A stretch of DNA of 64,000 nucleotides, from contig CM037870.1 in assembly GCA_021292105.1 (NCBI GenBank), forward strand, positions 47,856,508 through 47,920,507, in the 5' to 3' direction. Shown piece by piece: positions 3,746 to 57,758 of this stretch. Origin of the DNA: Anadara kagoshimensis (lineage: Eukaryota; Mollusca; Bivalvia; Arcoida; Arcidae). Made by a program: the position numbers and the translations under genes. A model generated the notes under the pieces. The model did no database searches and was not told where the DNA came from. It was given only the letters and a program-made list of their open reading frames with translations. Positions within the stretch are counted from its first letter, which is position 1, and every line of letters begins with the position of its first letter.

Positions 3746-3895
3746 TAGCAAGGATGATTCAACTGCATAGTCACATGACAAACTACATGAGTTACTACAG
3801 ATCAAAGTACTGAAGTTACAGCAAGATGGTTCAACTGCATAGTCACATGACAAACTACACAAGTGTCTAAAGATCATAGTATCGATGCTACAGTA
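3746..3895. repeat. tandem duplication of about 75 bp
   Basis: Two copies sharing 'TTCAACTGCATAGTCACATG' and 'ACAAACTACA', followed by diverged but alignable sequence. Confidence 0.6.
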
Positions 3896-4514
3896 AAATT
3901 TGGTGGGAGGAAACTATATCTTAGAAAAGCAATTAGATTAAATGTTGTTGATGTTAGTACCGTAACACATTTACTTTTTTTCTCCTCAAGATTTCTGTTT
4001 TATAGTCAAAACTTTATCAAAATTTGAGTGAATAGTTGATAGAAGTATAACTAGGTTTTGCTGCACATATATTTTGTTAATGCATTCGAGAGATAAATGT
4101 AAGAGAGTACATAGAAGGAATAGTTTCATCAAATTGATTTAAATATCAATTTCAAAACTTATTTCCAAATTATCTTATGTCATTTTAGTTAACATTTGGC
4201 AAAGAATGTAAAAACAAATTTCTGAACAGTATGACACAGTATGTTATACTGGTTTTCCAATATATCAGAATTCTCTTTCAAAAGGAATCCATTTTGTACT
4301 TAATTAGCATGGAGATATGTTGCAATTTGTTAGAATGGAGTTCACTAATGTGATGCCCACAAAGTGTGCTAAATGTTGACACCATATATTCCAAAATAAT
4401 GTCATATTTTTACTGGAAAAAATTCAAACAATTTGGTTCCATGTATCCAATCAATACAAAAGTTCCGCAGACATTATGATGAATCCTGTGAAAAACGAAT
4501 GGTACTTAGTAATC

Positions 4515-4665
4515 AGTGACCATGGTAACCCATAACATCCATTATAGTCTGTTTCTAAAGTACCCATGGTAACCCATTACTTCCATTATAGTCTCTTTCA
4601 AAATTGTCCATGATAACCTATAACTTCCATTATAGTCTGTAAGACTGTATCAAAATTACCCATCA
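4515..4665. repeat. tandem repeat of about 55 bp, three copies
   Basis: Three units built on 'CCATGGTAACCCATAAC' and 'TTCCATTATAGTCTNTTTC', increasingly diverged toward 4665. Confidence 0.6.
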
Positions 4666-5659
4666 TGATATTAATAAAGATCTGCAGATTTAAAAATGTC
4701 CAATGTATAAAATATGTATAAAGATTAATCAGAATTTAAAAAAAAACAAACAAAAATATAGATATTAGTTTAAACAAACAAGAGGAATGTGATAAACAAC
4801 CCTTTAAACAGGATACAGTAGTATATTAGAAAAAAAGCTTCAATACAATATATAAATTTTTGCATGCAGGAAAAAAGTGAAGTTTTAATATATAAATTTA
4901 TAAATAAATGACATATTTACAGAATGAAATGATTTACATTTTACTACATAATATATAGTCTTAACTAATGAGTCATATAATTCCAGTACTGGCTGTTTAT
5001 TGGTAAATATTTGACAGGATACAGTATCAGGTTGTTTATATCTGCAAAGCTTGATAGCAGACCCAGAGATTTTGGAAAGGGGGGTTTCATACTTTCAAAA
5101 AGCTAGGAGGTCTGGGGGCATGCTCTTGTAAAATTCTTTTGAAATGAAGCATAAAATCCTGTGATTTCTTGCAATCTTAGCATATGATACACAGAACAAA
5201 TATATAATGGACAGAAATAAAGAGGGGTGTTTAGACCCTTGAACCCCTTCTGGGTCTGCCACTAAAAACTGTACTGACAGTATTCATGAAAATAAAATGG
5301 CAGACATGCCCCATCAAAAACAAGTCTGAACAGATGTTATAGGCAAACTACAGTGATCTGTCTGCTTGACTATTTGGGAATATTCATATAAGACGATCCA
5401 CCCAATACATGGGTACTAGGATTAACATATAATACAAAAACAATGCAAGTTTCCTATAAGGTTCAGGGAATAAACACCATTATTACATATACATAAATTA
5501 ATGGTACATAATGAATATTCAAATTAAAGGTCAAGCTGCAAGGTCAATGTTGTTTGGTTAAGATTTTAATGGGATGTCATAATTATGTTTCACATAGAGT
5601 CCTACAAACAGTTGGACTTATATCATGTTGACATTAGTGATATGATGCTATCTTGAAGC

Positions 5660-6481
5660 ATTTAAAATCTTAAAAATCCAATTTATTCAATTTCATTAAA
5701 TATTTCATCAAATAGTTTAACAGGAAGAAATTTTAAGCTTCATTCAATTTCAATTTCATTAAAGAATTTCACAGGATGGACAACCAAAAATGTATTTGAA
5801 AAATGACAAAATAGCAAAAGGGACATACCATATTACAACATTCACAATTTCAGAACTTCAGTTATTGGTATGTTAAAACAGACACTGAAAAATGTTTTAA
5901 TTTCCAGACATGTAAAAATCCTGTCAACATCTCCTGTCAAATATTTCCAATTTACAATATGACTTGATACCACATTTTCTTCTACTGACTGACAGACTGA
6001 AAAAAACTGCTTCATTAGCATGATTAGATCGTTACTTCAGTCTCTTCACATAAATAAAAAAAAACCTGTATGAACCTACTGTTGTCGTTACTATAGGGAG
6101 ACTACTTAATTAACCCAGTCCTAATACACATAAAACAGGATTGTCTTCAGTCTCTTCCTTGCACTAAATTGACTTGGTCAATAAAACCCCTTATTTCCCA
6201 AACTATAAAGAAATGTTATTTAGGAGCTTAAGTGAAGCAAGGGTTTGGCCTAAAAACAGAAATTTCAGGCTCTGTCCATTTAAACCAAATTGGAATCATT
6301 TGCTTACACATTACTGTCAGATCTTTTTGAATGAATTCATATATTATAGATGGTTATATAATGTGTATGAACTATTGGTAAACAACATTTAACTTGAGAA
6401 ATTTGGTCAAGAGAAGGGTTCACTCAGATTTTCTTCCTTGCTAACTAAACCAATCCAGGACTTTGGTGTCATCACATCCTG
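5660..6481 (-). other. probable proximal 3' UTR of CAMTA
   Basis: Sequence after the TGA. The first AATAAA on the gene strand appears at 5682-5687 (TTTATT on the + strand), about 795 nt after the stop. A transcript ending just below it is plausible; CAMTA 3' UTRs can be longer, so the end is uncertain. Confidence 0.4.
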
Positions 6482-6599
6482 TCAGTCTTTGGTGTGGTTC
6501 TCTGGTTGAATTTGACTACTTCCATGGGTAACCTCTTCAACGTCTGGCTGATGATGAAGTATGTTGTCTGTGTGAGTGGTGTTTTGGTCTGACTGTGAG
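6482..6599 (-). CDS. CAMTA: CAMTA coding exon 21 with stop codon
   Basis: Residues 1403-1441 and TGA (6482-6484). A polar tail, SQSDQNTTHTDNILHHQPDV then EEVTHGSSQIQPENHTKD, with no recognised domain. Acceptor CTTTCAG. The phase fits exon 20 (AG+C = Ser). The tail is not conserved enough to prove itself, so an alternative last exon inside the long intron is possible. Confidence 0.8.
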
Positions 6600-8488
6600 C
6601 TGAAAGTAAAAAAATAAACAACAATCATTAAGAATTCACAACTTTGGTTGATCGAGAACCAGTTTGTCTAATCAAATTGAAAAATTGTCACTTCATCTCA
6701 ATCAATTTTGTTTCCCTGTCCAGAGCAGACCATATTTAAAACTGTTTTATATAAGGGAGTCAAAAACTAAAATAAAAAACCCAATTTAACAAGAGGCCCA
6801 TGGGCCTTATACGCTCACCTGATAACTAATGGCTAGCTGATAGATTTAAAGAAAACATAAATACTAAACCCCAATGAATTTTTTCTTTACATCAAAGTGA
6901 TCATTGCATCAATACCTACAACATTCTAATATACATGCCTATACAAAACTTTTATAGTTTTCAAGATAATTAACCATTTCAGTATTGTTTTCGCATCTGT
7001 GACCTTGACCTTTGAACCCATGACCTTTTTCTATACCTCAAAATGATCATTGTATCAATACCTACAACATTCTAATATACATGCCTATACAAAAAGTTTA
7101 TAGTTTTCGAGATAATTAACCATTTCGGTATTGATTCGCATCTGTGACCTTGACCTTTGAACCCATGACCTTTTTCTATACATCAAAATGATCATTGTAT
7201 CAATACCTACAACATTCTAATATACATGCCTATACAAAAAGTTTATAGTTTTCCAGATAATTAACCATTTCGGTATTGATTCGCATCTGTGACCTTGACC
7301 TTTGAACCCATGACCTTTTTCTATACATCAAAATGATTGTTGTATCAATACCTACAACATTCTAATATACATGCCTATACAAAAAGTTTATAGTTTTCGA
7401 GATAATTAACCATTTCGGTATTGTCTCGCATCTGTGACCTTGACCTTTGAACCCATGACCTTTTTCTATACATCAAAATGATCGTTGTATCAATACCTAC
7501 AACATTCTAATATACATGCCTATACAAAAAGTTTATAGTTTTCGAGATAATTAAACATTTCCGTATTGTTTCGCATCTGTAACCTTGACCTTTGAACCCA
7601 TGACCTCTTTCTGTACATCAAAATGATCGTTGTATCAATACCTACAGCATTCTAATATACATGCCTATACAAAAAGTTTATAGTTTTCGAGATAATTAAA
7701 CATTTCCGTATTGTTTCGCATCTGTGACCTTGACCTTTGAACCCATGACCTTTTTCTATATATCAAAATGATCGTTGTATCAATACCTACAACATTCTAA
7801 TATAAATGCCTATACAAAAAGTTTATAGTTTTCGAGATAAGTAACCATTTTGGTATTGTTTTACATCTGTGACCTTGACCTTTGAACCCATGACCTTTTT
7901 CTATACACCAAAATGATTGTTGTATCAATACCTACAACATTCTAATATACATGCCTATACAAAAAGTTTATAGTTTTCGAGATAATAATTATAATCAGAG
8001 GTAAAAAAATTAGGTCACGACCTTCATAATTGACCTTGACCTCAATTTGAAGATACTAACAAGAAGATGTCAAAACTGAAAACCCCATATCATTATCTGG
8101 CCAAATAGTCAAGTTATAACAATTTGAAGCTATTTTACGATTTTTTCAAAATTAAACGCAAAAACGCGTAACCTATTTTTTGTCCGAATTTCACAAAATG
8201 AACAAACTATAGGCTAAAGACCCTAGAGAAGCCAAATATCACATCAGATTTTTTCTCTAATCAATACTTTCGGAGAAGAAGATTTTTTAAGATTTTTTCA
8301 CCCCTAGGTCACCTTGACCTAGTTATGGTAGCCATGGCAACACCACGAACAAATTTGAATTGCACCGACCAAGACATGCATCTGACCAAGTCTCGTTGAA
8401 ATCTGCCCAGTGGTTCGTGAGAAGAAGATGAAAATGTAAAAGTTTACGACGACAACGACGACGACGACGACGACGACAGACAACGGAC

Positions 8489-8520
<32 letters not shown>

Positions 8521-11500
8521 TGGCTCAGGTGAGCTAATAATAACTGACAATGTAATTTGCAATTTACAATTTCTCAAGGTCGAGGTCACCTAAAAAATTG
8601 TATCATTATTTTATGCCTTAACATTTTGTTTCTCCTTAAACAAGCTTCATCTTGTGCATATAATATGCAAAGAAATATCTTGGGGCCCAAATAGATAATA
8701 TATATATGTAAATTAATAAATAGTAACTGATAACAATTATAATGTTAACCTCCTGAAAAAAGTGGTGAAACATATGGATATATTTTCCATCATGTGTCCT
8801 TAATGAAAGCATTCTAAATTTAAAGTTCTTCCTGTGAATCTGGAACCTAAAAGTGCAAAACGATTTATAAAGTTCAATATTTTACTACATAATGCTGTAC
8901 AGGCTCAGGTGCAAATTAAAAAAAATAAATTCCTGGGTTTTTTTTTATATTTTGTGTCTGTGACATTTTAATGACGGACATGACGCATCTATACATGCCA
9001 TAAACTTGTTATACATTTTGAACTTTGTCAATTGTAAAATCTTTACATATTTAGAACTAACCCTGTTAAGGCACTTTGAAATTTTGGTTAAAACATTTGT
9101 TCTATGTATGTAAAAGGTCTTATAATGATGATTGATGTGGTGTAGCATCTACATGTGTCCTGTATGCCAATGTGCAGACCTTGTAAAAGGTCTAAATGTA
9201 AGATATTGATTTTATAATGAAGCAGTTCTAATCTATTTAAAGCTAGAATCTAGATAAAAGTTTTAACTTGTACAAGAAAATTCTATGAATTAGTACAGCC
9301 CACCAGTGGATTTTTTTTGTGAGTTGAACACATGTTTAACAACATGCATATCAATCTGTTGATACTTTCCACCAAGTTTTCTCATGTGACTATCCAGGTA
9401 TATTGAGGTATGTCAAAGTTTTGTTTACTACGGATACAGTAGTTTTGGAGAATTACCCCCGTTATCGGAGAATAAACAAAAGTTAATAATATACACATCT
9501 CCTATCACTGAGATAATTTCAAACAAATTTTGTAAACATTTCGTAAATAGCTTTTCCATTGAAACTCAAAGGGCCATAACACCAAAAACAATTGACAAAC
9601 AAACTCAGGTTAATGAAATGGGCATTCCATCACTTTATAATATGCAAATGGTATACTGGTGAAATCCATTATCCAGTTATTTAGCGTACCTCACCAGCAT
9701 TAATATGATATATTTTGAAAAGAGTAAAAAAGCAAGGTACTAACTAGCTTATATGCCAGTGGTAATTACTGCTTATAAAAACCACAACTGGTCAACAATA
9801 TTTTAGCAAGTGCTATATAGCAAGATTTCACTCCAGCAAGATTTAAGACAAAGTTTTCTCTCTAGCAAGATTTAAGACAAAGTTAAGATGGTATAAGCTT
9901 GTTTTGGTCACAGCGAGATAGAGAATCCTATTAGAAACTTGAAAGGTTCTATCAACCTCGGATAACTTTATATACGTCTTTGAAACCTTCAGATTTTTTG
10001 GGCTAAATCTGAAAATGAATCTGAACTTAAGCTGACACTTTGATAATCCATCAGCGCCAAGTTATACTCCATTCAACAGCAAGGAACTGTGTGCTATGCA
10101 ATAACAGCCATAATGATGCTTTTTCCATTTAAACATTCATCATTGAGAAACTGTTTCTATGCTAAACTAGCAATAATAATGGTGCTGTTTGTATTTAAAT
10201 AAATGGTGAATTTCAATCAAAGTAGCCTGAAAAATGTCATGTGTCCTTGACAGTAGGTAGGGGAGAGTACACATCAAAAGGTGAAGGTCAATTACAGTGA
10301 TATATCCTTGACCTCTGGTGAAATGTGACAAAAACAAAATATATATAAGAAATGATAAATATTGGATAAATGATAAGATTGTGTTTGGTACAGCTAGCAG
10401 AAATAATGCCTCACACTACAAAATTATAATGGTGTCTATGTGAGCAAATCTAAAAAATAAAAATAATAAAAATACCTCATTTTTATTATTATCAATCACA
10501 GTCTGAAAAAAATCAACACAACATCATCACACACATGCAGGTATCTATAACAGCTTAATATCTGTCATTACAATTAGCGGAAACAATAAAGTAAAACATA
10601 CTTCTACTATCTAACATAAATACACACACATACGCATACTCAATTAAACTTCTAATTACAGTAACAGGTATTCTATAGAGTTATAGGTCTCTTTTATAAT
10701 AACAATGTAATAAAACTGTACCGGTAAGTAAAACTAACACCTGCTGATTGATTATTCCTGTACCATTAATTTATGCCTCATCTTGCAGATAATAGCAATT
10801 CCCCACAATACAACACAATTTTTATTGTCTCAAGATTTATCTATACTGAATTTTGTGTTGGGCCAGTTTGTTTCTTATCATCTAAATACAGTAAAGACCT
10901 GTTGAGAGTTTAACACTAAGCTAACAAATTAGTGCTGAATAGGTAGTCATCTCATCTCAAATTCTCATTAGCTATATAGTAAAACATGAATATAACAAAC
11001 ACAGATACAATGAATGCATAGATTACCGGTATTAGATAGTACAAATTCAAATATTAGGCCTGACTGCTACTTTATGCAAGTCTATTTATAATGATATAAT
11101 AATGCCGCTTTATAACGAAGTTAAAAAAAGAGTCCCCAGGGCTTCATTATAAACATGTTTTACTGTATCTGGAAGGCTTTTTGGCAGCTGTGATCTATCT
11201 CACTGTGGCACCAGTTTTAGGCTTCTAGTTATTCATATCTTGGCAACTCAGCAACTGAGCTTTGACTTTGACATAAACAACTCATTTAAACAAGAATTTC
11301 TCAAAACAACATCAAATAAAGAGGCAGCGATTTAAGATTATTCATTTCAAAAACAAAATACTGATACCCAAAATATTGGCATTCTACAAGTAGTAACAAC
11401 ATTCAACAAGTTAATGTTTTGTACTTGTTACTTTGATCATGATAATAATACTTTTGATGAAGAATTAGATTCACAGTTGAGTTAATTATGGTGTTTAATG

Positions 11501-20500: not shown

Positions 20501-22970
20501 GGTACCTAGCTCAGTTGATAAGAGTGTCCTGTTAGTATTGTGATGATACCAGATCCAAGTTCCAGGTTGGCTGCTGCATGTTCCCCTTTTCTTGATAGAC
20601 CATAATAAAGTAGACCGTGTTTAAACATAATTTTCTAGAAACCTACAAGACTACTTACTAATTGAATGTCTGTCAGAGCTGCGTCTTGACACATGTTCTC
20701 CTCCTTCATCATCAGATGATAACTTCTCTACATCTATTATAGGACTGTTACTTCCTGATGATAGTACTTCATCTGTAAAACAAACATAGTAAAATGAAAA
20801 GTTTTCTTAAATGGCCTAGACAGATTGCAAACAGACAGATAGAAACTTAGCATGCAAAATCAAACTCTTCAAAAAGTTTACTGTATAAAGGAAACACAGC
20901 TGTTTAAAACATACTCTCACAAAGTAGTTCTACGTTTATTGAATAATGGATGACATAAAATATTTCCATAAATAACCAATAAATTAAACATTCATATTTT
21001 CTAAAATCATGAATAATACAGATATGTTAGATCTATCTTTAATTTTTTTAAAGTGTTCAAAACAGCAACATGGAGTGGAATGAAGTGATTCTGTATTATG
21101 CCTCAGTCAAGATTGTTTTTACTTATTTCAAGGTGGTCAGTTCAAGGATGGTGAAGGAAACTGGGGTGCTTGGAGAAAACCACCCACCTTCAAACATCAA
21201 CATGGCTTGACTATAACTGCATGTACGGTAAATATATCAATAAAATTATCAAGAAAATTATTCAAAAATACACATGTAACTGAATCAAAAGAAGATTATT
21301 ACCTGTGTCCATTTGCATTAATCCTGAAGCATCACCTGGAGTCAGTGGTATTGTTAACGCATCCAAATGGTCAAGTCCTACTTTCAATTGATCTCCAAAT
21401 GCATCAGTATGCATCAACATGTCTGGCGATGTCAGATCGCGACCATGGTCAGCTAGCATTGGATTGTTTCCCCTGGTCATTGGACTTGTTGCCATAGGCA
21501 AGTGTGGTTCTGAAATAGCTTCTCTAACTGGTCTCTCTGACTGACCGCTAGAGGAGTAATTCCTATCATCAAATTCAGATGGACAAATATCTACAGAGTA
21601 TCTCTTGCTAAGTTTTTTCCTGGCGGAGTTTCCGCGTAGAGAGAGATCACTCTGCCTTCTGATTGGTGCACTAACAGCTTGACTAGTATTCTGTAATGGT
21701 TGTGGAATTTCAACATGTAATGAACCTAAGTTTGAACTGAGACATGTAGCAATGGGTTCTGGTGATTTAAACACTTGCATCAAGCTATGTTTTGTGACTG
21801 GGGTTGATGTACATAGAGGCGTATCTTCTGACTTCACAGGGGAGTGTAAGAATTGAGATCCAGAATTTGTACTTGATATGAAATCTTGTCCGAGATTCAA
21901 ATTTGAATGAGTGACTTTTGTAAACTCTAATTTCTCTAGTTCTTTCACAATATCAAGATGTCTGTATTGTTGAGCAACAGTTAGTGGATATAACCCATCT
22001 TTGTTCTTAATTTTCATGGCATCTGAGTTCCAGTAATACAAAGTACTTGCTGCCTGTTGATGTCCCTTTGCGCATGCCCAAAGCTAAAAATAATAAATAT
22101 TAACAATAGTATCACTTTATAGTAATTTGTTATCATTCAAATATTAAAAAGTACAATGTGTTCACTAATGTGTCACAAATGTACTACATGAAACAGATAC
22201 TCTATAAAAGAAGTAGGTATAGTAAGGTAATATAGACAACACAAATTTTTCTACTTTAACTATTAGTCTATACTACAATATATTGCAAAATAGGCCATTT
22301 GTTCTAAAATCCTTTACTACTCAGCTGAAAACATATCCAATTATACAGCAGTATTCTTGCATTATTTTAGAACAAAGACCAAGGTTTGTGCAAATTGAAT
22401 AATACTTCTCCTAAGGATGCTACCAAAGTCCAGATTAATTATTATTTTCAACTTTCCTAAACTCTCTGATTCATGTTTTAAGGTTTCACTATATAAAGCC
22501 ACTTTGACCTTGAAGGTGAAAGTCCTTTAGCTTTGCAAACTATGAAAGCAATCATGCTTTAATACTATATATGGAGTTTCATGGCATTAATAATGGCAAG
22601 ATGCTTAAAGGTTTACTATGCACTTGCATGAAGGTCAAGGTCAATCAGCAACACAAATGTGGTAAGCCTTTTATGCACTGATTCTATATATCAAACTTTT
22701 TGGCCTATCGGGTCATGACAAGAAGCTGTTTTGTCAAGTCTTTGGCAAAACAATCCTAAATTTTATTTACCAAAGCTGTACAGTTGTGGTCATCTTGACA
22801 TTGAGCATCCACTTCATAATCCAAGATCCAGCAAGGATTATCTGACCTGTCAATAAATATGAGAAAATCAAAATTAACAAATGTAAAACCACAGAGGAGA
22901 CTATTATATGATAAATCTTATAATGAAATTCTCTTTTTGAAGATAATTATAGAGAAAAAAAATTACAATT

Positions 22971-32000: not shown

Positions 32001-34646
32001 TAAATTGCTATTCAAAAGAGATATTATTATATGCACAATAGCGGGGCTAGAACAATTTACATATTTATAAAAAAATTCACAAAAAGCTTTTGTTCCATGG
32101 CAGTTTGAATTCACTAATATGTTGTCCAATGACACAGAATATCACTTCTTTACAAACTTGTGATCAATTGGATTTGAAGATGTTTTTTCGCTTTGAAGGA
32201 TAATATGCTAATATGCTATCTGAAATTACTATGTAATGAGTGGAGTGGAGTAATGGTGCTTTATGCCCAGTCAAGATTTTTTCACTTATATAGATCTAGA
32301 CAGACAGTTCAGTGATGGTTGAGGAAACCAGAGTGCCTGAAGAAAACCACCAAACTTAAGCAAGCAATCTGACACTAGGATCTGTCCCAATTGGGATCAA
32401 AGCCATGTGATGAGAGGCACTGTAAGCTGCAAGCTGGTGTTACTAGGTAATGACATTTTGTATTTACTATACCTGAAGCAGCCAATAGCATCTTCTGTGG
32501 AAAGTTGGTAAGATATCTGAATGAACATATGATCCATAAATACACTGAAAATAAAACAAAACAAAAATTATACACATGTCAACAACATATACGCTAAATA
32601 GCTGATCTTACTGCTTCAACTTACATACATGTATCAGTTAAACATTTTTCATAAATACTTTACATGTATTCCAACATGATAATATAACTTCTGAGAATAT
32701 ATCTTCATCATCATTGTTTGCCCTTGTTTTAATTATTCAGAGGTGGTATGGTAATTATATAAATGTGGTAAAGTTACATTTGAGTTAAACTTGTGAAAGA
32801 TCTCTATAAACAAATCTGGACATAACTGGACATAAAATAGTAAAATCTATGTTACAATTCCTGGTAGTCAAAGTTGCCATTGGATACTAATTTCTGAGAA
32901 ATTCTTTTAAAAAGTAACCTATTTAAGCAAATATGAGAAAAAATACTTAAAATAGGCATATTTTTTCACAAATTATGGAAACCTAGGAAATTCATAAGTA
33001 ACTCTACTCAAATACAGCCAACTCTTTTCTAATGTATTTTAATGCAACAGTAATACAAATTATATATATTATATATGAACGAAAATAAAATAAAGCTAAT
33101 TGATTTATTGAAAAATTAACATAAGAACCACTTATGATCTCTATAAAACCAATCTATCATACCTCTAAACCTTGTACTTTCAGCTTCATATGATCCTCTC
33201 GGATATTTTTCCCATCTTTCCTTTTCTTCCAGCAGTAGCCATCTTTCCGATAACGGACTTTTTTGCGGCTGTACATCAACATTGATCCACTTGGTGGTCT
33301 GCATAAGAAATATAACCAATTAAATAATGAACAAGCAAATTCAGTGAATTAAGTTCCCCCGCCAGCAGGTTTTTTTTTGTGATTTGCACTTGTGTTCAAA
33401 GAGCAATAACTCCTAGGAAAATGAGCAAACCAACTCAGGTTAATAAAATGCGTATCTACTGTCAATGTGTATGCTTTGGCCCAAGTTTCATGAAATAGTG
33501 CCTCATAGTTTTGTCTTGACATTACATTATGAAGGCATTTTTCGATTTTGTCCAAAAATGCAAAAATGTGTTACCCATTTTTCCAAGAAATTTTACAAAA
33601 TGAATAAATTATTAGTTTAAGACTAAATCTCAAATCACGTTTTGGCTCTAGTCATGTGTTTTAGAAAATGAAAATGTTTTAGGTTTTTCAGTGAAAGAGC
33701 CACAACTCCCATGAAAATGAGCACATCAACTTGTGTTAACACTATATGCATCTCCTATTCATGTTGATGTTTTGTATCAAGTTTCGTGAAATAGTGCTTC
33801 ATAGTTTGGAGAATTAGCGCAGACAAGAATTTCCAACGGATGAACAGAAGGATGGAAAGGATAACAAAGAGAAACAAAGACTCTTGCTTCAAGGGTTGTG
33901 GATTTTCTTTTTTAAGCCCTAAGATGGATGGACTCTTAGTATATTGCCAGTTATTAAGTGCTATTACATAAAACAGGAAGAAGACAAAATTGTAAAAGAT
34001 AAATGAGATGGTAATATGAACACTAACAAGGGATGTTCAAATGGACACAATCAACAGCCTTTCCAACACAGAACACAGGATAAAAACCAATTACTGATCT
34101 GATGTAAATAAAACATATTGATTTGTATTCTGTTTAAAAGGAACATAAAGTTTTACTGATACTAATTTCCCACATGATTAACAACTTCTAATGTAAAAAT
34201 AAAACACAAATAAAACCCCCGCTAGGTTAGCCCGTCAATGTGCTGGGTTAGCCTATCGATGTGGCGGCATCTGAGCGTGATCAATACCATTAGTATATAA
34301 GTACGTACCTGATTTTCATCTCTAAATGTTGCCATTCTTTGTGTTTGTGGAAAGCAATCAGTAATGAAGCGATTTCCTGAAACAGAACATTATAAGCCTA
34401 TAATCAATATCCTTTATATAGATAATTAAACAAATCCAAAATCTGATCAAATATTAATTACACAAACATTATTTCTCTCTCTCTCTCTCTTGATTACATA
34501 CAGAAATTCTGAAGGACAAGGATTACTTTTCTATGTAGATGTATACCAGTGTCACCCCTAAAAAGTTATGACTGGATTTTTATACCGGGGTAAATATGGT
34601 AAGGAGTAAGGACCTAATTATTTGTAAAGACCCCCTCTCCATCTCC

Positions 34647-41500: not shown

Positions 41501-44500
41501 AAAAGCTTTAAGGTATATGCAAGAGACTTTGATCTTGACTTCAGTCTGTTCAAATTCTAAGATGACAATTACTACAAAATGAGTCAATTTCTATGAATAA
41601 GATTATGTATATGGCTTTTCAAGGTAGAACTTGGAGAGCAGCTTCAGCAGCAGCAGTAATATATATATAAACCCACATACTTCCACTTTCAGACCTAGCA
41701 GTCTACAATTACTGCAGTGTTAAATCTAGAACTAAAATTTTGTGTGACCATTTTGGCCCACCAGAACTTGTTAAAATGGCAGTATATTTTCAAAACAGAT
41801 GTCAACATTTTTATACAATGATTCATTTTATTTAAAAAATCAGTTTTGTAGTTTGTTATTCATGCAATCACATATTTATGATACATGTCTTCGCACATAT
41901 AATACTATCAGGCTGATCAACAGATGTTACACATTGTTTGTATCTCAGAAATTAAATCTTATGTCAATCATAAACTAAATTTTTATGTTGAATTCTACAG
42001 CAAGAGCAGCAATAATAACTTTGACAAACTACATCAGAAAATCATAAATCCTACTGTATAGTTGTTTTATTGAATTCTGTGGGGATAAAATTTCGCGATT
42101 TACTAGTAGACACTAGAACTTATTCATGAATATAAAATTCCGCTGTGCAGTGGCCGGGGTTAACAATTTTCTGTATAGATTATCTAAGTCTAAGTTTAAT
42201 GGATGCTACATGAAAATATTCACTTGGTATTTTATTTCCAGCTATTATTTCAAACCACAAATATAGCAAAAGTAAATACCCAGTGAATAAAAGCAGCCAT
42301 ACAGTAGTTATGTATTAAGGTATTATAGTGAGGACTTTGTCTTGGAAACACTGTGATGGAGTATTCCAACATACAAATACCAAAAAAGATGCTATTTCAT
42401 AAATACATGTACTTTGTAAAATTAATTTTGAAAAGATTTTATATATCCAGCAGTTGAATACATATGGTTAGAATTCAATGTTCATTCTAGAAAGAGTCAT
42501 TGGCCATGATCCCTTATTTTGCCAAATGATCAATTGTTGTCCTAAATTTGCCATTGTTTAACATTACAGGAATGCAAAAATATTGATCTTACAGTGTTTT
42601 AGAGGAAAGTTTTTGAAAATGGCCTGCTTCTGAAAAAAAATCAGATTGAACACTTCGATAACTTTAAAATGTTGTTACATATCATGCATTTTGAAAACAA
42701 GAGGCCCAAAAGGGCCTGTAACGCTCACCTGGATCTATTGGACTTCTATGATAGTTGAAATTGACTTACTGATTTCAGAGAAGTCATTTAAGTAATGTTT
42801 ACAGAGGCACGAAGAAACACACCGCAACACAACAACCTCAGTTGGCCTTTGGCCGGGTGAGCTGAAAACATACCATCTCATTTATACCATAAACCTAGTT
42901 GATGACCAAACTTTTACTTCTATGTTTCAAATTTGAACGAAATCAGTCAATAAAATAAAATAAATCTGAAATATAATATTATGCGCTTTGGCTATTTATA
43001 GTAATGGCAACCATCTTGGAAATGGAACGGCAACACCAAACAAAAATTTTACTCCTTACCACTCAAGGACATTCCACATAAAATTTGGTTGAAATTGGCC
43101 CAGCAGTTTCAGAGGAGAAGATTTTCAAAGAATCATGCTAAAAAATAAACCTAATTTGCATATTCTGCTAATATCGTAGCAACGAAAAAATTTGCGGAAA
43201 AACCCGTTTTATATGTTAAATGGCCAGACATCTACTTTCTATATTTCAAATTTGAACGAAATCGGCTCACAAATAAATCTGAAACAACAAATTATGTGTT
43301 TTTGCTATTTATAGTAACAGCAGCCATCTTGGATATGGGGCAACAAAACCAAACAAATTTTTACTCATTACCACCCAAGGACCTTCCACAACAAATTTGG
43401 TTCAAATTGGCCCAGCAGTTTCAGAGAAGATTTTCAAAGAATCATGCTAAAAATACACCTAATTTGCATATTCTGCTAATATCGTAGCAACGAAAATTTT
43501 TATGGAAAAACCCATTTTATATGTTAAATGGCCAGAAATCTACTTTCTATATTTCAAATTTGAACGAAATCGGCCAACAAATAAATCTGAAACAACAAAT
43601 TATGTGTTTTTGCTATTTATAGTAACAGCAGCCATCTTGGATATGGGGCAGCTTAACCGAACAAAATTTTACTCATTACCACCCAAGGACCTTCCACAAC
43701 AAATTTGGTTCAAATTGGCCCAGCAGAAGAAGATTTTCAAAGAATCATGCTAAAAATACACCTAATTTGCATATTCCGCTAATATCGTAGCAACGAGAAT
43801 TTTTACGGAAAAACCTGTTTTATATGTTAAATGGCCAAACATCTACTTTCTATATTTCAAATTTGAACTAAATCGGCCCACAAATAAATCTCAAACAACA
43901 AATTATGTGTTTTTGCTATTTATAGTAACAGCAGCCATCTTGGATAAGGGGCGGCAAAACCGAACACAATTTTTACTCATTACCACCCAAGGACCTTCCA
44001 CAACAAATTTGGTTCAAATTGGCCCAGCAGTTTCAGAGAAGATTTTCAAAGAATCATGCTAAAAATACACCTAATTTGCATATTGCGCTAATATCGTATT
44101 AACGAAAATTTTACAGAAAAACCCGTTTTATATGTTAAATGGCCAGACATCTACTCTCTATATTTCAAATTTGAATGAAATCGGCCAACAAATAAATCTG
44201 AAACAACAAATTATGTGTTTTTGCTATTTATAGTAACAGCAGCCATCTTGGATAAGGGGCGGCTAAACGAACACAATTTTTACTCATTACCACCCAAGGA
44301 CCTTCCACAACAAATTTGGTTCAAATTGGCCCAGCAGTTTCAGAGAAGAAGATTTTCAAAGAATCATGCTAAAAATACACCTAATTTGCATATTCCGCTA
44401 ATATCGTATTAACGAAAATTTTTACGGAAAAACCTGTTTTATATGTTAAATGGCCAGACATCTACTTTCTATATTTCAAATTTGAATGAAATCGGCCCAC

Positions 44501-47500
44501 AAATAAATCTGAAACAACAAATTATGTGTTTTTGCTATTTATAGTAACAGCAGCCATCTTGGATAAGGGGCGGCTAAACCGAACACAATTTTTACTCATT
44601 ACCACCCAAGGACCTTCCACAACAAATTTGGTTCAAATTGGCCCAGCAGTTTCAGAGAAGAAGATTTTCAAAGAATCATGCTAAAAATACACCTAATTTG
44701 CATATTCTGCTAATATCGTAGCAACGAGAATTTTTACGGAAAAACCTGTTTTATATGTTAAATGGCCAAACATCTACTTTCTATATTTCAAATTTGAACG
44801 AAATCGGCTCACAAATAAATCTGAAACAACAAATTATGTGTTTTTGCTATTTATAGTAACAGCAGCCATCTTGGATAAGGGGCGGCAAAACCGAACACAA
44901 TTTTTACTCATTACCACCCAAGGACCTTCCACAACAAATTTGGTTCAAATTGGCCCAGCAGTTTCAGAGAAGATTTTCAAAGAATCATGCTAAAAATACA
45001 CCTAATTTGCATATTGCGCTAATATCGTATTAACGAAAATTTTACAGAAAAACCCGTTTTATATGTTAAATGGCCAGACATCTACTCTCTATATTTCAAA
45101 TTTGAATGAAATCGGCCAACAAATAAATCTGAAACAACAAATTATGTGTTTTTGCTATTTATAGTAACAGCAGCCATCTTGGATAAGGGGCGGCTAAACC
45201 GAACACAATTTTTACTCATTACCACCCAAGGACCTTCCACAACAAATTTGGTTCAAATTGGCCCAGCAGTTTCAGAGAAGAAGATTTTCAAAGAATCATG
45301 CTAAAAATACACCTAATTTGCATATTCCGCTAATATCGTAGCAACGAAAAAATTTACGGAAAAACCCTTTTTATATGTTAAATGGCCAGACATCTACTTT
45401 CTATATTTCAAATTTGAATGAAATCGGCCAACAAATAAATCTGAAACAACAAATTATGTGTTTTTGCTATTTATAGTAACAGCAGCCATCTTGGATAAGG
45501 GGCAACAAAACCGAACACAATTTTTACTCATTACTACCCAAGGACCTTCCACAACAAATTTGGTTCAAATTGGCCCAGCAGTTTCAGAGAAGAAGATTTT
45601 CAAAGAATCATGCTAAAAATACACCTAATTTGCATATTCTGCTAATATCGTAGCAACGAAAATTTTTATGGAAAAACCCATTTTATATGTTAAATGGCCA
45701 GAAATCTACTTTCTATATTTCAAATTTGAACGAAATCGGCCAACAAATAAATCTGAAACAACAAATTATGTGTTTTTGCTATTTATAGTAACAGCAGCCA
45801 TCTTGGATATGGGGCAGCTAAACCGAACAAAATTTTACTCATTACCACCCAAGGACCTTCCACAACAAATTTGGTTCAAATTGGCCCAGCAGTTTCAGAG
45901 AAGAAGATTTTCAAAGAATCATGCTAAAAATACACCTAATTTGCATATTCCGCTAATATCGTATTAACGAAAATTTTTACGGAAAAACCTGTTTTATATG
46001 TTAAATGGCCAGACATCTACTTTCTATATTTCAAATTTGAATGAAATCGGCCCACAAATAAATCTGAAACAACAAATTATGTGTTTTTGCTATTTATAGT
46101 AACAGCAGCCATCTTGGATAAGGGGCGGCTAAACCGAACACAATTTTTACTCATTACCACCCAAGGACCTTCCACAACAAATTTGGTTCAAATTGGCCCA
46201 GCAGTTTCAGAGAAGAAGATTTTCAAAGAATCATGCTAAAAATACACCTAATTTGCATATTCCGCTAATATCGTAGCAACGAGAATTTTTACGGAAAAAC
46301 CCGTTTTATATGTTAAATGGCCAAACTTCTACTTTCTATATTTCAAATTTGAACGAAATCGGCCCACAAATAAATCTGAAACAACAAATTATGTGTTTTT
46401 GCTATTTATAGTAACAGCAGCCATCTTGGATATGGGGCGGCAAAACCGAACACAATTTTACTCATTACCACCCAAGGACCTTCCACAACAAATTTGGTTC
46501 AAATTGGCCCAGCAGTTTCAGAGAAGAAGATTTTCAAAGAATCATGCTAAAAATACACCTAATTTGCATATTCCGCTAATATCGTAGCAACGAAAAAATT
46601 TACGGAAAAACCCTTTTTATATGTTAAATGGCCAGACATCTACTTTCTATATTTCAAATTTGAACTAAATCGGCCCACAAATAAATCTCAAACAACAAAT
46701 TATGTGTTTTTGCTATTTATAGTAACAGCAGCCATCTTGGATAAGGGGCGGCAACACCGAACACAATTTTTACTCATTACCACCCAAGGACCTTCCACAC
46801 CAAATTTGGTTCAAATTGGCCCAGTAGTTTCAGAGGAGAAGATTAAAGTTTACGGACGGACGGACTGACGGACGCTTTATCATGCCATAAGCTCACATGG
46901 CTTCGCCAGGTGAGCTAAAAAACTGCTGATCAACACTAAAGCATACTTTTATGTGGCAGTTCATATGGCCAAAATAAAAGAGAGCTTGTTATTATCCATA
47001 ACAATAACAAGAAACAAGACCAACTTCTTTAGACAGATGAGTAGAATGGAGTTATGTCCTACTCAAGATTCTTTCACTTATAATGAGGAACATTGTTCAG
47101 GGATGTGGAGGAAACCAGAGTGCCAGTAAAAAACCACCAACCTTTGGCAAGTAAACTAACAAACATTCCCACACAAGGATTTGACTAGAGTGGAACTCAG
47201 GCTTAGGCGGTTAGAGGCGCTGTGATCTGTAAGCACCTTCTTTAGACCACTCTGCCTACGAGCCCGTGATAGAGAGGTATAATGATATATGGTATCTGAC
47301 ACTTGAAAGTATAAAAAGATTAAAAAATTGGCTGTTTATTAGGGTAATGGTCTATAAATAGAAAACTCATTTCGTGACATAAGAGACAGACTACTACATG
47401 TACATCCTACTTAACTCCACAGTATAAAGTATTTTTATCACTGTAAATTACAAGGAAATACATTTATATCTACTTCTATATTTGTACATTAATCCATCAA

Positions 47501-50500
47501 TAGTTTTACACTAATTACTGTATATTAGCATAATTACACCAGCACGGTCAGACTTCACTCTTCTTTTATTGATTAAGAAAAAAATTAGCCTGAAGTAAAG
47601 ATTTATTTCTGGTGCAATCATGACTAATGATCTGATTAATTAATTCTTAGTAAGTTCTGTCTTCTTTCTTATACCACCAGGTTTGACAATACTCGCAGTA
47701 GTATACTCATTTTACAATGCCACCAGGTATGACAATACTCACAGTAGTATACTCATTTTACAATGCCACCAAGTACAACAATACTCACAGTAGTATACTC
47801 ATTTTACAATGCCACCAGGTACAACAATACTCACAGTAGTATACTCATTTTACAATACCACCAGGTATGACAATACTCACAGTAGTATACTCATTTTACA
47901 ATGCCACCAGTTACAACAATACTCACAGTAGTATACTCATTTTACAATGCCACCAGGTACAACAATACTCACAGTAGTATACTCATTTTACAATACCACC
48001 AGGTATGACAATACTCACAGTAGTATACTCATTTTACAATGCCACCAGGTATGACAATACTCACAGTAGTATACTCATTTTACAATGCCACCAGGTACAA
48101 CAATACTCACAGTAGTATACTCATTTTACAATGCCACCAGGTATGACAATACTCACAGTAGTATACTCATTTTACAATGCCACCAGGTATGACAATACTC
48201 ACAGTAGTATACTCATTTTACAATGCCACCAGGTACGACAATACTCACAGTAGTATACTCATTTTACAATGCCACCAGGTACGACAATACTCACAGTAGT
48301 ATACTCATTTTACAATGCCACCAGGTATGACAATACTCACAGTAGTATACTCATTTTACAATGCCACCAGGTATGACAATACTCACAGTAGTATACTCAT
48401 TTTACAATGCCACCAGGTATGACAATACTCACAGTAGTATACTCATTTTACAATACCACCAGGTATGACAATACTCACAGTAGTATACTCATTTTACAAT
48501 GCCACCAGATACGACAATACTCACAGTAGTATACTCATTTTACAATGCCACCAGGTAAGACAATACTCACAGTGGTATACTCATTTTACAATGCCACCAG
48601 GTACGACAATACTCGCAGTAGTATACTCATTTTACAATGCCACCAAGTACAACAATACTCACAGTAGTATACTCATTTTACAATACCACCAGGTATGACA
48701 ATACTCACAGTAGTATACTCATTTTACAATACCACGAGGTACGACAATACTGACAGTAGTATACTCATTTTACAATGCCACCAGGTATGACAATACTCAC
48801 AGTAATATACTCATTTTACAATACCACCAGGTATGACAATATTCACAGTAGTATACTCATTTTACAATGCCACCAGGTATGACAATACTCACAGTAGTAT
48901 ACTCATTTTACAATACCACCAGGTATGACAATACTCACAGTAGTATACTCATTTTACAATGCCACCAGGTATGACAATACTCACAGTAGTATACTCATTT
49001 TACAATGCCACCAGGTATGACAATACTCACAGTAGTATACTCATTTTACAATGCCACCAGGTATGACAATATTCACAGTAGTATACTCATTTTACAATGC
49101 CACCAGGTATGACAATACTCACAGTAGTATACTCATTTTACAATGCCACCAGGTATGACAATACTCACAGTAGTATACTCATTTTACAATACCACCAGGT
49201 ATGACAATATTCACAGTAGTATACTCATTTTACAATGCCACCAGGTATGACAATACTCACAGTAGTATACTCATTTTACAATACCACCAGGTATGACAAT
49301 ACTCACAGTAGTATACTCATTTTACAATGCCACCAGGTATGACAATACTCACAGTAGTATACTCATTTTACAATGCCACCAGGTATGACAATACTCACAG
49401 TAGTATACTCATTTTACAATGCCACCAGGTATGACAATACTCACAGTAGTATACTCATTTTACAATGCCACCAGGTATGACAATACTCACAGTAGTATAC
49501 TCATTTTACAATACCACCAGGTATGACAATACTCACAGTAGTATACTCATTTTATAATGCCACCAAGTACAACAATACTCACAGTAGTATACTCATTTTA
49601 CAATGCCACCAGGTATGACAATACTCACAGTAGTATACTCATTTTACAATACCACCAGGTATGACAATACTCACAGTAGTATACTCATTTTACAATGCCA
49701 CCAAGTACAACAATACTCACAGTAGTATACTCATTTTACAATGCCACCAGGTATGACAATACTCACAGTAGTATACTCATTTTACAATGCCACCAAGTAC
49801 AACAATACTCACAGTAGTATACTCATTTTACAATGCCACCAAGTACAACAATACTCACAGTAGTATACTCATTTTACAATGCCACCAGGTAAGACAATAC
49901 TCACAGTAGTATACTCATTTTACAATGCCACCAAGTATGACAATACTCACAGTAGTATACTCATTTTACAATGCCACCAGGTATGACAATACTCGCAGTG
50001 GTATACTCATTTTACAATGCCACCAGGTATGACAATACTCACAGTAGTATACTCATTTTACAATGCCACCAGGTACAACAATACTCACAGTAGTATACTC
50101 ATTTTACAATGCCACCAGGTACAACAATACTCACAGTAGTATACTTATTTTACAATGCCACCAGGTACAACAATACTCACAGTAGTATACTCATTTTACA
50201 ATGCCACCAGGTATGACAATACTCACAGTAGTATACTCATTTTACAATACCACCAGGTATGACAATACTCACAGTAGTATACTCATTTTACAATGCCACC
50301 AGGTATGACAATACTCACAGTAGTATACTCATTTTACAACAATTTGATTTTTAACTACATGTATTACTAATACCACCAGGTTTGGCATATTCTGATTTTA
50401 GAACAGATCAATTTAACTAGGTCTAATGCCAAAGTTGAAAAAAAATCACTTTAAAGTAGATATTATTAGTTTTTAGCACTGCTGTAAAAATATACAGAAA

Positions 50501-52672: not shown

Positions 52673-52728
52673 ACACTCAAATTTTTAAAAACCCAATCTT
52701 TTTTACCTGTAGCATTTAACTGGTTTAA

Positions 52729-53719
52729 GCCTGTCTCACACAGAACACACGGCTTATACGGTTGGCCACCCATGTAAACCGTACATACAACCGAACCAAC
52801 CATGGCCTTATCCGACTTACACTCGGGCCATTCGAGTGTATCCGTGAAAGCCGTGTATGATTTTTAAAACTTTTAAAAAACTGGCACGGGTGCCATGTCC
52901 GTGTATGATCGTATTAGCGATCATACAAGACCATGTGAGACCGTACGAGACCGTGTATGATCGTATTAGCGATCGTACAAGACCGTGTGAGACCGTACGA
53001 GACCGTATATACATAAATGCACTGTTTATTAAATATTTTATTATTATCACTTTGCAAAAATAAAATTAAAGGTTCCCATAGAAAAAATAAGATGTACCTT
53101 TATAAGCAAGCAGTGGTTATTTTTCTTAGATATTTTCTTTGAAATAACATTTGTTCCCTTTATAAAGGTACATCTTATTATTCATTTTTCCCTTTGAAGA
53201 AATAACTACTTTGTCCCTTGGTCCAAAAATTAAGTCACCAGTTAGGAAGCTTATCAAAACCACTTTGAGCTCAAAAAGTGCTATTACACTTTCCAAACAC
53301 GATATCTAGCAAATGTAACTGTGTATAAAGAAGCAAAGAACATCAAAACATACACGAATGTGTGATAATTCGAGCATAACTCGAACAAAAGTCGGTGGGA
53401 CCGTATGTAAACCCTGTAAATGTCCAGTTAATCGAGTAAAAGTTGTGTTTAATCATACTAGGCCGTAACAGACCGTACTTGGAACCGTACAACAATCGTA
53501 TGAAAATCGTTTGCAAATCGTGTTCAAACCGTGACAAACCTTGCTTGACCGAGTATATCCGTGCTTTGTTCGTACATACTCGTGCTACATTCGAGTCTAA
53601 ATCGTACCAACTCATCCCCAGGCACGGTTGGAGCTCAATACTCGTACCAGTCAACCCGTGTATAACCGAGTGTACCGTATTGGAACCGTGTGCCCAACCG
53701 TGTTCTGTGTGAGACAGGC
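52729..53719. mobile_element. inverted-repeat element with TTAA-type duplication and phased CG
   Basis: Ends GCCTGTCTCACACAGAACAC and GTGTTCTGTGTGAGACAGGC are perfect inverted repeats, flanked by TTTAA (52724-52728, 53720-53724). A TTAA target is typical of piggyBac-type elements, but the termini are not the classic CCC, so the superfamily is open. No transposase. The outer thirds are crowded with CCGT/CGTAC motifs at about 10-11-bp spacing; the middle (53020-53340) is AT-rich. Confidence 0.75.
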
Positions 53720-53739
53720 TTTAATCATTCAATACTCTG

Positions 53740-54619: not shown

Positions 54620-55430
54620 TACACGATTGGAGTAAAGTAATGAAGTGATATGCTCCAGGTCAAGATTTTTTCACTTATATTGAAGCAGTCTGTTCTGATA
54701 TTGGTGGAGGAATCAAGTGTACTTAGAGATTAATAGAATCTACCATGAGTATCCATGTAGGATATTAGGGAAATCTCACCCGAGGGGTTGAATATTTCAG
54801 TCAGAGATGAGGCTTGCTGAATCTCTGACAGAAATATTTAACCCAGAGGGTGAAATTTCCCTATCCTACATGGGTAAACTCATGATTGATTCTTTTTCTT
54901 CCATTTTGATGACAACTTTTGCTTGAAGTATCAGTTACATCATCGACATCGACACCATCTTTGTAAATCTAGCTTTGTAATTTAACGTTTTACATAAAAA
55001 TAAATATGACCATCGGATAAAATGTACCCGATTTTGGTTTATACAAAAAGTATAAACTAGAAAACACAGCTATTTATTCCAATCTCCCAAAATAAACATT
55101 TGAAACGCAACGAAAATTTCTAAATTTTTAAGACTCGGGTGTCATTTTCCTGCAAGACGATGTCATGTTTCAACAATATGAAGTCATTCAATTGTCCTTT
55201 GATTGTTACATCACTGAAAATCTGTAGGTCAAGATAAACGCAGGTGGGGGTGAAGATAGAAATTTCTACCATCGTTTCTTCAAGTGGAAATCTCTATTTC
55301 AAGAATAGGAAGATGGAAGAAAACTACCAACCTTTCTTTTGCAAGTGAAATGACAACATTCTCACACTAGGATCTTCCTCAGCAGAATTTGAACCTAGGC
55401 AGTGAGTCTCTAGACCACTAGGACCCTCAG
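54620..55430. mobile_element. SINE split by a foldback element
   Basis: The SINE runs 54632-54730 (GTCAAGATTTTTTCACTTAT, GGTGGAGGAATCAAGTG) and resumes at 55320 (GAAAACTACCAACCTTTC.., ACACTAGGATCTTCC). Between them, 54736-55318 is a copy of the 23.9-kb foldback element with its 157-bp hairpin (54736-54892) and decayed CRE sites. Confidence 0.65.
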
Positions 55431-56181: not shown

Positions 56182-57758
56182 CAAGAGGCCCATGGGCCTT
56201 AACGCTCACCTGTGACCTTTGAACCCATGAGCTTCATTCAAATATCAAAATGATAATTAGGCAAATATTCTAATAAACATCCCTATACAAAAAGTTTATA
56301 GTTTTTGAGATAAATAATCATCTCAGTACTTGTTTGTAGCTGTGATCTTGACATTTGAACCCATAACCTTCATTCATATATCAAAATGACCACTGTGCCA
56401 GTACCAACAATATTCTAATATACATGCCTATACAAAAAGTTAATAGTTTTCAAGATAATTAACCATTTAGGTATTCATTCGCATCTGTGACCTTGACCTT
56501 TGAACCCATGACCTTCATTCATATATCAAAATGATCATTAGGATAATACCTAAATATTCTTATATACATGCCTATACAAAAGGTTTATAGTTTTTGAGAT
56601 AAATAATCATTTCAGAACTTGTTCACATCTGTGACCTTGACCTTTGAACCCATAACCTTCATTCATATATCAAAATGGTTGTTAGGCTAATACCTACAAT
56701 ATTCTAATATACATGCATATACGAAAAGTTAACAGTTTTCAAGATAATTAACCATTCAGGTATTCATTCACATCTGTGACCTTGACCTTTGAACCCATGA
56801 CCTTCATTCATATATCAAAATGATCGTAAGAATAATACCTAAAATATTCAATATACATGCCTATACAAAAAGTCTATAGTTTTTGAGATAAATAATCATT
56901 TCAGTACTTGTTTACATCTGTGACCTTGACCTTTGAACTCATGACCTTTATTTATATATCAAAATGACCAATGGGCCATTACCTACAATATTCTAATATA
57001 CGTGCCTATACAAAAAGTTCATAGTTTTGCAGATAATTTACTATTTTGGTAAACTTGTACATCTGTGACCTTGACCTTTGAACCCATGACCTTAATCGAT
57101 ATATCAAAATGATCGTCATGTAAATACCTACAATTAACCAAAAATCCTATGTCATTATCACCAGAAATGTTTAAAAAATAGCATTTTTTATCAATGGTCA
57201 AAAACTGGGACATGACCTTGACCTTTGACCTTGACATCAATCGGAAGAAAATCGCAAGACCAGATCAACAGTGAAAACTCCATACAATTATCTTCAGCCA
57301 TTATGAAGTTATAACAATAAATGTCTCATTTTAAAAATTACATAATTTTATGCAAAAAACGCGTAACCTATTTTTCGTCCAATTTTTATGAAAAACACAA
57401 TTTAAATGTATCTAGGTATCCTGAATCCAAATATCTAATCAAAATTTGCCTGCACCTTTCGGTTTCAGAGAAGAAGATTTTTTTGTCTTTTGGCTATTTA
57501 TAGTAACGGCAGCCATATTGTTGGGCGTGGTCAAACCCCGAACACAATTTTGAAAGCCTGTTACCCAGGCATAATAATCACCATGTTTCATCAAATTTGG
57601 CTCAGTAGTTTTGGAGGAGAAGATTAAAATGTAAAGTTTACGCACGACGCACGACGCACGACGGACGACGAACGACGAACGACGAACGACGGACGACGGA
57701 CGACGGACGGTGATAGATAGCAATAGCTCATCTGAGCCTTTCGGCTCAGGTGAGCTAA
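56182..57758 (+). mobile_element. Helentron-like element C, A-type core with B-type end
   Basis: Start CAAGAGGCCCATGGGCC then CGCTCACCTG; end AGCTCATCTGAGCC TTTC GGCTCAGGTGAGCTAA. About six core units of the 145-bp A type, with TGACCTTGACCTTTGAACCC at about 56487, 56628, 56775, 56920 and 57065. From about 57490 it has the B-type end (CTATTTATAGTAACGGCAGCC, GGAGGAGAAGATTAAA) and an (ACG)n tract at 57645-57710. No enzyme encoded. Confidence 0.65.

Follow-up and report, generated by a model that had tools for sequence, protein, structure and literature searches.

Helically phased CG words in both arms of a short PIF/Harbinger-type transposon of Anadara kagoshimensis, a candidate array of protein-binding sites

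A CG-rich inverted-repeat element of Anadara kagoshimensis, spanning 52728–53720 of the 64,000-nucleotide stretch of contig CM037870.1 analyzed here (the window), is by its ends and its target-site duplication a short non-coding, non-autonomous DNA transposon of PIF/Harbinger type. Both of its arms carry CG dinucleotides spaced at the DNA helical repeat. In the right arm, and less clearly in the left, these CGs lie within 8-bp words—RAYCGTRY—separated by spacers that are free in sequence. The arms are probably subterminal binding arrays, with about one putative site per helical turn, for a transposon protein (Myb-like) or a host protein.

The boundaries and the classification rest on other copies of the family, retrieved from a genome of 1.115 Gb in 36 contigs. 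The terminal repeat (last 20 bp, up to 2 mismatches) gave 254 genome matches and its reversed control none; places were listed for the first 100 of the 254 and for exact 16-mers (96 and 98). A search for copies scored 40 places out of 142 first-look candidates, the window included, and the other 39 were retrieved. Phase and majority-sequence counts use 39 of the 40 copies, L080 being left out for its insertion; substitution and indel counts use 35 of the 39 aligned copies, four flank-sharing copies being left out, and L113 was left out of the clustering.

Taken alone, the window copy, which has TTA on both sides and perfect 21-bp terminal inverted repeats, permits a duplication of either 5 bp (TTTAA, our first reading) or 3 bp (TTA), and the flanks of the copies decide for 3-bp TTA/TAA. 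The ends have the form A...T in 39 of 39 copies (L080 left out), and identical 3-bp flanks are found in 31 of 40 copies including the window (16 TAA, 14 TTA, and one TCA). With both ends read inward, a TTA/TAA duplication predicts near-equal numbers of ends preceded by TTA and by TAA; by exact 16-mers the genome holds 96 TTAAGCC and 98 TAAAGCC ends, and 61 of 69 complete end pairs are consistent with the duplication. A TWA (TTA/TAA) target-site duplication is the rule for the PIF/Harbinger superfamily. The 21-bp inverted ends and the duplication seen in the copies therefore define the element and its type. The coordinates of its parts are collected in Table 1; the same opposite-strand match that forms the core hairpin is present in 36 other genome copies.

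Several other assignments were considered and set aside. The window flanks disagree over the 8 bp of a hAT duplication and the copies agree over 3 bp; piggyBac and Kolobok membership, with TTAA on both sides, misfits TTA or TAA beside A...T ends; and the termini begin AGCCTG rather than CACTA/G, which excludes CACTA. A Foldback-type structure was rejected because only the ends (about 21–28 bp) form inverted repeats between the two arms of the window copy. As to function, a 124-aa frame across the right arm has no Pfam match, and searches of the window for RNA genes gave neither a tRNA nor an Rfam match at gathering score.

Table 1. Parts of the element, its flanks, and CGs lost from the window copy (positions in the window)
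Feature	Position	Strand	Basis
Target-site duplication TTA, left	52725..52727	.	3-bp flanks of copies outside A...T-extended ends
Left terminal inverted repeat, 21 bp, AGCCTGTCTCACACAGAACAC	52728..52748	+	Inverted-repeat search and copies
Left arm, array of RAYCGTRY-type words, mixed orientation (14/23 on +)	52749..53010	+	
Tandem 52-bp duplication, two copies; both differences are CG vs. CA	52899..53002	+	
CG-free AT-rich core	53006..53299	.	
Imperfect 100-bp hairpin in core; 23-bp outer arms, 96% complementary	53083..53182	.	
Right arm, RAYCGTRY word array; 24/26 scored CGs better on + strand	53355..53700	+	
Right terminal inverted repeat, 21 bp	53700..53720	-	
Target-site duplication TTA, right	53721..53723	.	
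CG in most copies, CA in window copy	52771..52772	+	Majority base of 35 copies
CG lost to CA	52771, 52801, 52922, 52932, 53107 (core), 53454		
CG lost to TG	53444		
Family terminal end, sequence form AGCCTGTCTCACACAG			

Periodicity was quantified as the Fourier power of CG positions and compared with 2,000 dinucleotide shuffles in the band 9.5–11.5 bp. CG power was 15.7 at 10.7 bp for the whole element, 8.3 at 10.7 bp for the left arm (52729–53015), 17.7 at 10.55 bp for the right arm (53371–53719), and 10.7 at 10.65 bp for 53464–53605; in all four regions this was the strongest period between 3 and 30 bp. None of the 2,000 shuffles reached the observed power within the band in any of the four, and when any period was counted the left-arm power was reached by 5/2,000 and that of the other three regions by none. 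Across 143 overlapping 350-bp segments of the window that hold 12 or more CGs, scanned at periods of 10–11 bp only, power reached at most 6.1 outside the element, compared with 16.8 in the right arm and 8.3 in the left.

These results bear out the initial annotation where it described the element: the CG positions it listed are all present, the 10–11-bp periodicity it reported exceeds shuffled controls in each arm, and the surroundings are CG-poor as it stated (CpG observed/expected 0.42 in the window, at 33% GC, vs. 1.27 in the element, which has 50 CGs). Its account of the phased tract needs amending. Both arms are phased, but the CG-free AT-rich core lies between them, so that the phasing belongs to the arms, and the element runs 52728–53720 rather than 52729–53719. 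Of the element's 49 CG steps, 28 measure 9–12 bp and the remainder are shorter (4–8 bp) or longer. Permuting the order of the steps lowered coherence, with 143 of 5,000 permutations reaching the observed value in the right arm and 20 of 5,000 in the left; phase is thus kept beyond one step, on evidence that is modest for the right arm.

The bases around the CGs follow a pattern of their own. Across the 50 CGs, R is found at offset −3 in 47, A at −2 in 26, Y at −1 in 40, T at +2 in 29, R at +3 in 41, and Y at +4 in 43. Information in the right arm exceeds the 95% null at each offset from −3 to +4 and falls below it at offsets −8 to −4, +5, and +6; the left arm, which contains the duplication, gives a less sharp profile (−1 below the null; −7, +6, +7, and +8 above). 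Pairwise identity in the right arm is 0.438 for word flanks and, for spacers, 0.253 against 0.252 expected, with no excess likeness between neighboring spacers. Spacers at chance beside word flanks that are alike indicate that simple decay of a tandem repeat does not account for the right arm.

The left arm shows the word less distinctly. For the first 12 CGs of this arm in the majority sequence, high identity is confined to offset −3 (0.83), and the other offsets have identities of 0.23–0.38 against 0.25 expected. CG steps at this end run 9, 12, 9, 12, 9, 12, 11, 9, 10, 9, and each alternating pair of 9 and 12 makes 21 bp, or two helical turns. The right-arm matrix scores left-arm CGs at a mean best of 3.1, compared with −1.7 for CGs in the rest of the window (Mann–Whitney P = 7e-11, better strand taken, with some of the 23 sites non-independent through the 52-bp duplication).

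Other copies extend the pattern beyond the window. Window-type copies differ from the majority sequence by about 2% (676 differences over 34,173 compared positions), which makes the family young. The retrieved elements fall into size classes of about 460, 700, 900–1190, 1000, and 1530–1600 bp plus three single forms, and complete end pairs (n = 69) span 244–2566 bp. CpG observed/expected of the copies is 1.1–1.5. Searched at 10–11 bp only, the right arm has its best period at 10.45–10.75 bp in 37 of 39 copies, the window and four flank-sharing duplicates included. Left arms are noisier, with best periods of 10.0–11.0 bp under the same search and observed powers of 3.3–11.8; the expectation that other copies keep the phase thus holds for the right arm and is blurred for the left.

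Seven representatives of the family match portions of the window element's two arms at about 88–97% identity and have different cores; one of them, L117, retains no more than 96 bp of right-arm sequence. Their whole-element power was reached by 0/500 shuffles in five, by 1/500 in L097, and by 14/500 in L117, whose peak period is 10.05 bp, and a local phase statistic was reached by 0/500 in any of the seven. Because the ends are common by descent, the differing cores provide the better test of phase. In L093 and L087 the core contains no 14-mer of the window element and is CG-phased (reached by 0/553 and 3/655 random placements, respectively), with the word mostly on opposite strands, so phase is present where the intervening bases differ, a point the initial annotation had singled out for checking. 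These two cores have 38 14-mers in common; being partly related, and with the ends of the size classes common by descent, they make the phase tests not all independent. At G000:C18:52980146-53433182, seven right ends lie within 0.45 Mb, six of them with a left end about 1.15 kb off, as if a segment had been amplified.

A second family carries the same word. Nested within L086 lies an 801-bp insertion that has a TTA duplication of its own and a terminal repeat of another sequence; its end, CGTTCCCACTATCACGATGCG, occurs at 70 genome places (up to one mismatch; reversed control 0), and by eye a TTA/TAA duplication fits three of four copies. The nested insertion and the window element gave no BLAST match at E up to 1 and have no common 11-mer. 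CpG observed/expected in this family is 1.7–1.8, perfect RAYCGTR surrounds 26% of its CGs vs. 1.5% in the rest of the window, and at least four of five word flanks are present at 60% vs. 20%. Periodicity was tested at three of four loci, L123 being without a right end: in these three genomic copies, which are related by descent, 1, 3, and 2 of 500 shuffles attained the 10.5-bp power, and a 4.9-bp half-period was stronger than the 10.5-bp period in all three. In the nested L086 copy alone the 10.5-bp power is weak (34/500 shuffles), and the local statistic was reached by 3/500. That word and spacing coincide in two families without sequence likeness speaks more strongly than any other finding for a shared protein rather than a relic.

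Substitutions and indels among copies were used to read the history of the arrays. Eight CGs of the 35-copy majority sequence are gone from the window copy, seven by substitution (Table 1) and one in a deletion; of the nine wide gaps in this copy (17–40 bp), four are filled in the majority sequence and five remain. Tests for decayed CpGs in the gaps of the window copy alone gave 5/12 sites, at chance, and 4/14 (P = 0.09). Across the 35 copies, CpG transitions number 102/3,827 vs. 180/10,142 at other C and G, an excess of only about 1.5-fold that makes lasting germline methylation of the arms unlikely. Divergence among copies is 1.67% in word flanks, 1.65% in the AT core, 2.3% in spacers, and 3.3% at CG. 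Since word flanks diverge no less than the core, constraint after insertion leaves no sign, and any constraint would fall on source copies. Distinct 1–3-bp indels outside homopolymers are rarer in the arms (14 in 613 sites, 22.8 per kb) than in the core (18 in 278 sites, 64.7 per kb); the AT-rich core may simply be more indel-prone.

Four readings of the phased CGs had been put forward initially: sites for an oligomeric protein, nucleosome positioning, methylated CpGs displayed on one side, and the relic of a 10–11-bp tandem repeat. Protein sites fit best of the four, given a constrained 8-bp word that recurs in an unlike second family; the binding itself we infer. One observation goes against an array of binding sites, in that symmetric ends predict inverted arrays and the left arm is mixed in orientation while the right is one-directional. 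The binder might also belong to the host, as a repressor or chromatin factor that is exploited by several transposon families or directed against them. We think this rather unlikely, even though the word is common to two families that differ in their terminal repeats and show no detectable sequence likeness, and no transposon-encoded partner was found among 114 DDE_Tnp_4 places compared and 69 end pairs: the arrays sit in transposon ends, where transposon proteins bind in the known systems as far as the passages cited below describe them, and a site that serves a repressor only is not expected to be kept. Growth of the arms by slippage of one 10–11-bp unit, followed by decay, would account for the true 52-bp duplication in the left arm, for the exact 10-bp units at 52981–53010, for the 4.9-bp half-period of the second family, and for indels of at least 8 bp, which are in phase in 15/30 distinct events in the arms and 0/7 in the core. 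That origin is nonetheless quite improbable, as right-arm spacers retain no residual likeness even between neighbors, step length varies from 9 to 12 bp while phase holds, and decay alone would not leave the word only. The relic idea is thus not supported for the right arm and keeps a foothold in the left through its duplication, and amplification may have helped build the array.

Nucleosome positioning would have phased CG and AA/TT/TA steps wrap the arms at a fixed rotational setting, for example hiding or exposing the ends, and periods of 10.5–10.7 bp suit wrapped DNA. Among other dinucleotides, compared with CG at periods of 10–11 bp only, AA is phased in the right arm, 7.1 bp from CG (0/500 shuffles); in the left arm TT is phased at 5.6 bp from CG (13/500) and TA at 4.7 bp (6/500). 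On the other side, the right arm shows no significant phasing of TT (94/500) or TA (61/500), AA in the left arm has its peak close to CG (offset 1.0), and GC is in antiphase to CG (offsets 4.5 and 4.9, 10 GC per arm). A specific 8-bp word also goes beyond what rotational positioning requires. Positioning does not predict that the bases flanking each CG be fixed, and what recurs in the second family is the word itself rather than a periodicity alone. We regard positioning as a poor prospect, and methylation as the most improbable of the readings. The latter would make CpGs one turn apart a substrate for a DNMT3-type dimer or a one-face display of methyl-CpG that silences the element. The two active sites of the DNMT3A dimer lie about one helical turn apart, the basis of a CpG spacing model (passages of PMC6316889), and the seven majority CGs substituted in the window copy have all become CA (6) or TG (1). 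Against this, the small transition excess among copies and their sustained CpG observed/expected give little sign of lasting germline methylation, and methylation alone leaves the fixed bases around CG unexplained, so the suggestion of one-sided methylated CpGs emerges weakened.

Under the preferred reading, a subterminal array of protein sites, each RAYCGTRY word would be a putative binding site for a protein supplied in trans, most likely the Myb/SANT-like partner protein of PIF/Harbinger elements or the transposase, with a host protein as the alternative. Some 23–26 words per arm, largely on one helical face, could allow protomers to stack side by side; one protomer per turn would then bind cooperatively and form a nucleoprotein cable or superhelix on each arm. 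Such a structure might mark the DNA as substrate and help to join the two ends, and unlike families with the same array would depend on the same or a related protein. Plasmid partition filaments form on tandem 10–11-bp sites and are comparable in principle to the proposed superhelix. A further-reaching proposal—that cut-and-paste transposon families of one animal genome, without sequence likeness to each other, converged on the phased RAYCGTRY array and have their ends wrapped by a superhelix of one protomer per turn—is tentative, and we hold it to be possible without expecting it.

If true, wrapping in a superhelix would mark and pair transposon ends in a way that is new. Many transposons are known to have subterminal sites for proteins; a dense helical-repeat array over 260–350 bp on both arms, with free spacers and a word that returns in an unlike family, would amount to a geometric assembly rule. 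The RAYCGTRY word offers a handle for the missing protein, and the phased array a signature by which such elements could be sought in other genomes. A CpG-rich patch in a CpG-poor genome can, moreover, be a transposon array and need not be a regulatory island.

Known systems resemble the element in part. With PIF/Harbinger it has in common the 3-bp TTA/TAA duplication, short terminal repeats, and many short derivatives, and it differs in the number of sites per arm and in their being held to the helical repeat. In zebrafish Harbinger3_DR, a Myb-like protein recognizes a 9-bp subterminal motif (passages of PMC9710019). Maize Ac, a hAT element, has subterminal AAACGG sites that the transposase binds cooperatively (passages of PMC3260210); Ac/Ds sites are likewise many, short, and CG-containing, lying within the terminal 200 bp of each end, whereas the duplications are 8 bp, the word is another, and helical phasing goes unmentioned in those passages. 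CACTA elements (Spm/Tgm) share reiterated subterminal motifs, for which methylation-dependent transposase binding has been proposed in soybean (passages of PMC4219821), but have CACTA termini and other motifs. Galileo, a Foldback element and P-element relative, also has several transposase (THAP) binding sites inside repetitive ends, with higher-order multimers proposed (passages of PMC3688188); they differ in that they number three and lie at distances of about 70, 570, and 710 bp from the end, within a 1.2-kb terminal repeat. The initial annotation knew of no described element with this pattern; in titles, the starts of abstracts, and passages, from a literature that lacks most subscription papers, we recognized no helically phased CG words in transposon ends, which is weak evidence of novelty.

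A search for an autonomous partner covered transposase domains, paired ends, and single ends. Genes with DDE_Tnp_4 abound in the genome, and 150 matches were scored of 735 candidates; of the 114 compared with listed ends, none lies within 10 kb and the closest is 12.6 kb away. No autonomous element was found among the 69 complete end pairs. Ten single-end loci, part of 56 unpaired ends (L103, L104, L105, L110, L113, L115, L116, L117, L121, and L122), were inspected by eye for frames 110 aa or longer (100 aa in one reading), and none looks like a PIF transposase; a long frame in L116 has the look of a LINE-type protein. In L115, a run of exactly 5000 N (3867–8866) lies beside the right arm, and an element with this gap inside it could be longer than its relatives.

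Beyond this genome, the terminal repeat gave no match in viral contigs and two in prokaryote contigs, which had no second end within the 8-kb locus and were taken as chance. Five words spaced 11 bp apart are matched by 31 viral-contig stretches (L003–L033), which may be chance matches, coding repeats, or mobile elements. In the window itself, an end-like match at 34057–34076 (17/20, 3 mismatches) was dismissed, having neither a partner end (up to 3 mismatches) nor a CG array.

The window also contains repeats of other kinds. Tandem arrays occupy 47674–50339 (46-bp unit, about 58 copies, 96% matches) and 42958–46844 (312-bp unit, about 12.5 copies, 94% matches). Units of 145 bp make up two further arrays, separate from each other, at 6880–7986 and 56264–57134; by eye these look related, and satellite-bearing mobile elements are a possible source. 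Four more frames of the window were scanned against Pfam, and one of them, on the minus strand at 21262–22083, has a weak ankyrin match below cut-off; judging by eye, we take it to be part of a CAMTA-like gene. At 54766–54863, arms of 43 bp, 86% complementary, enclose a 12-bp loop; this hairpin looks like another short inverted-repeat element.
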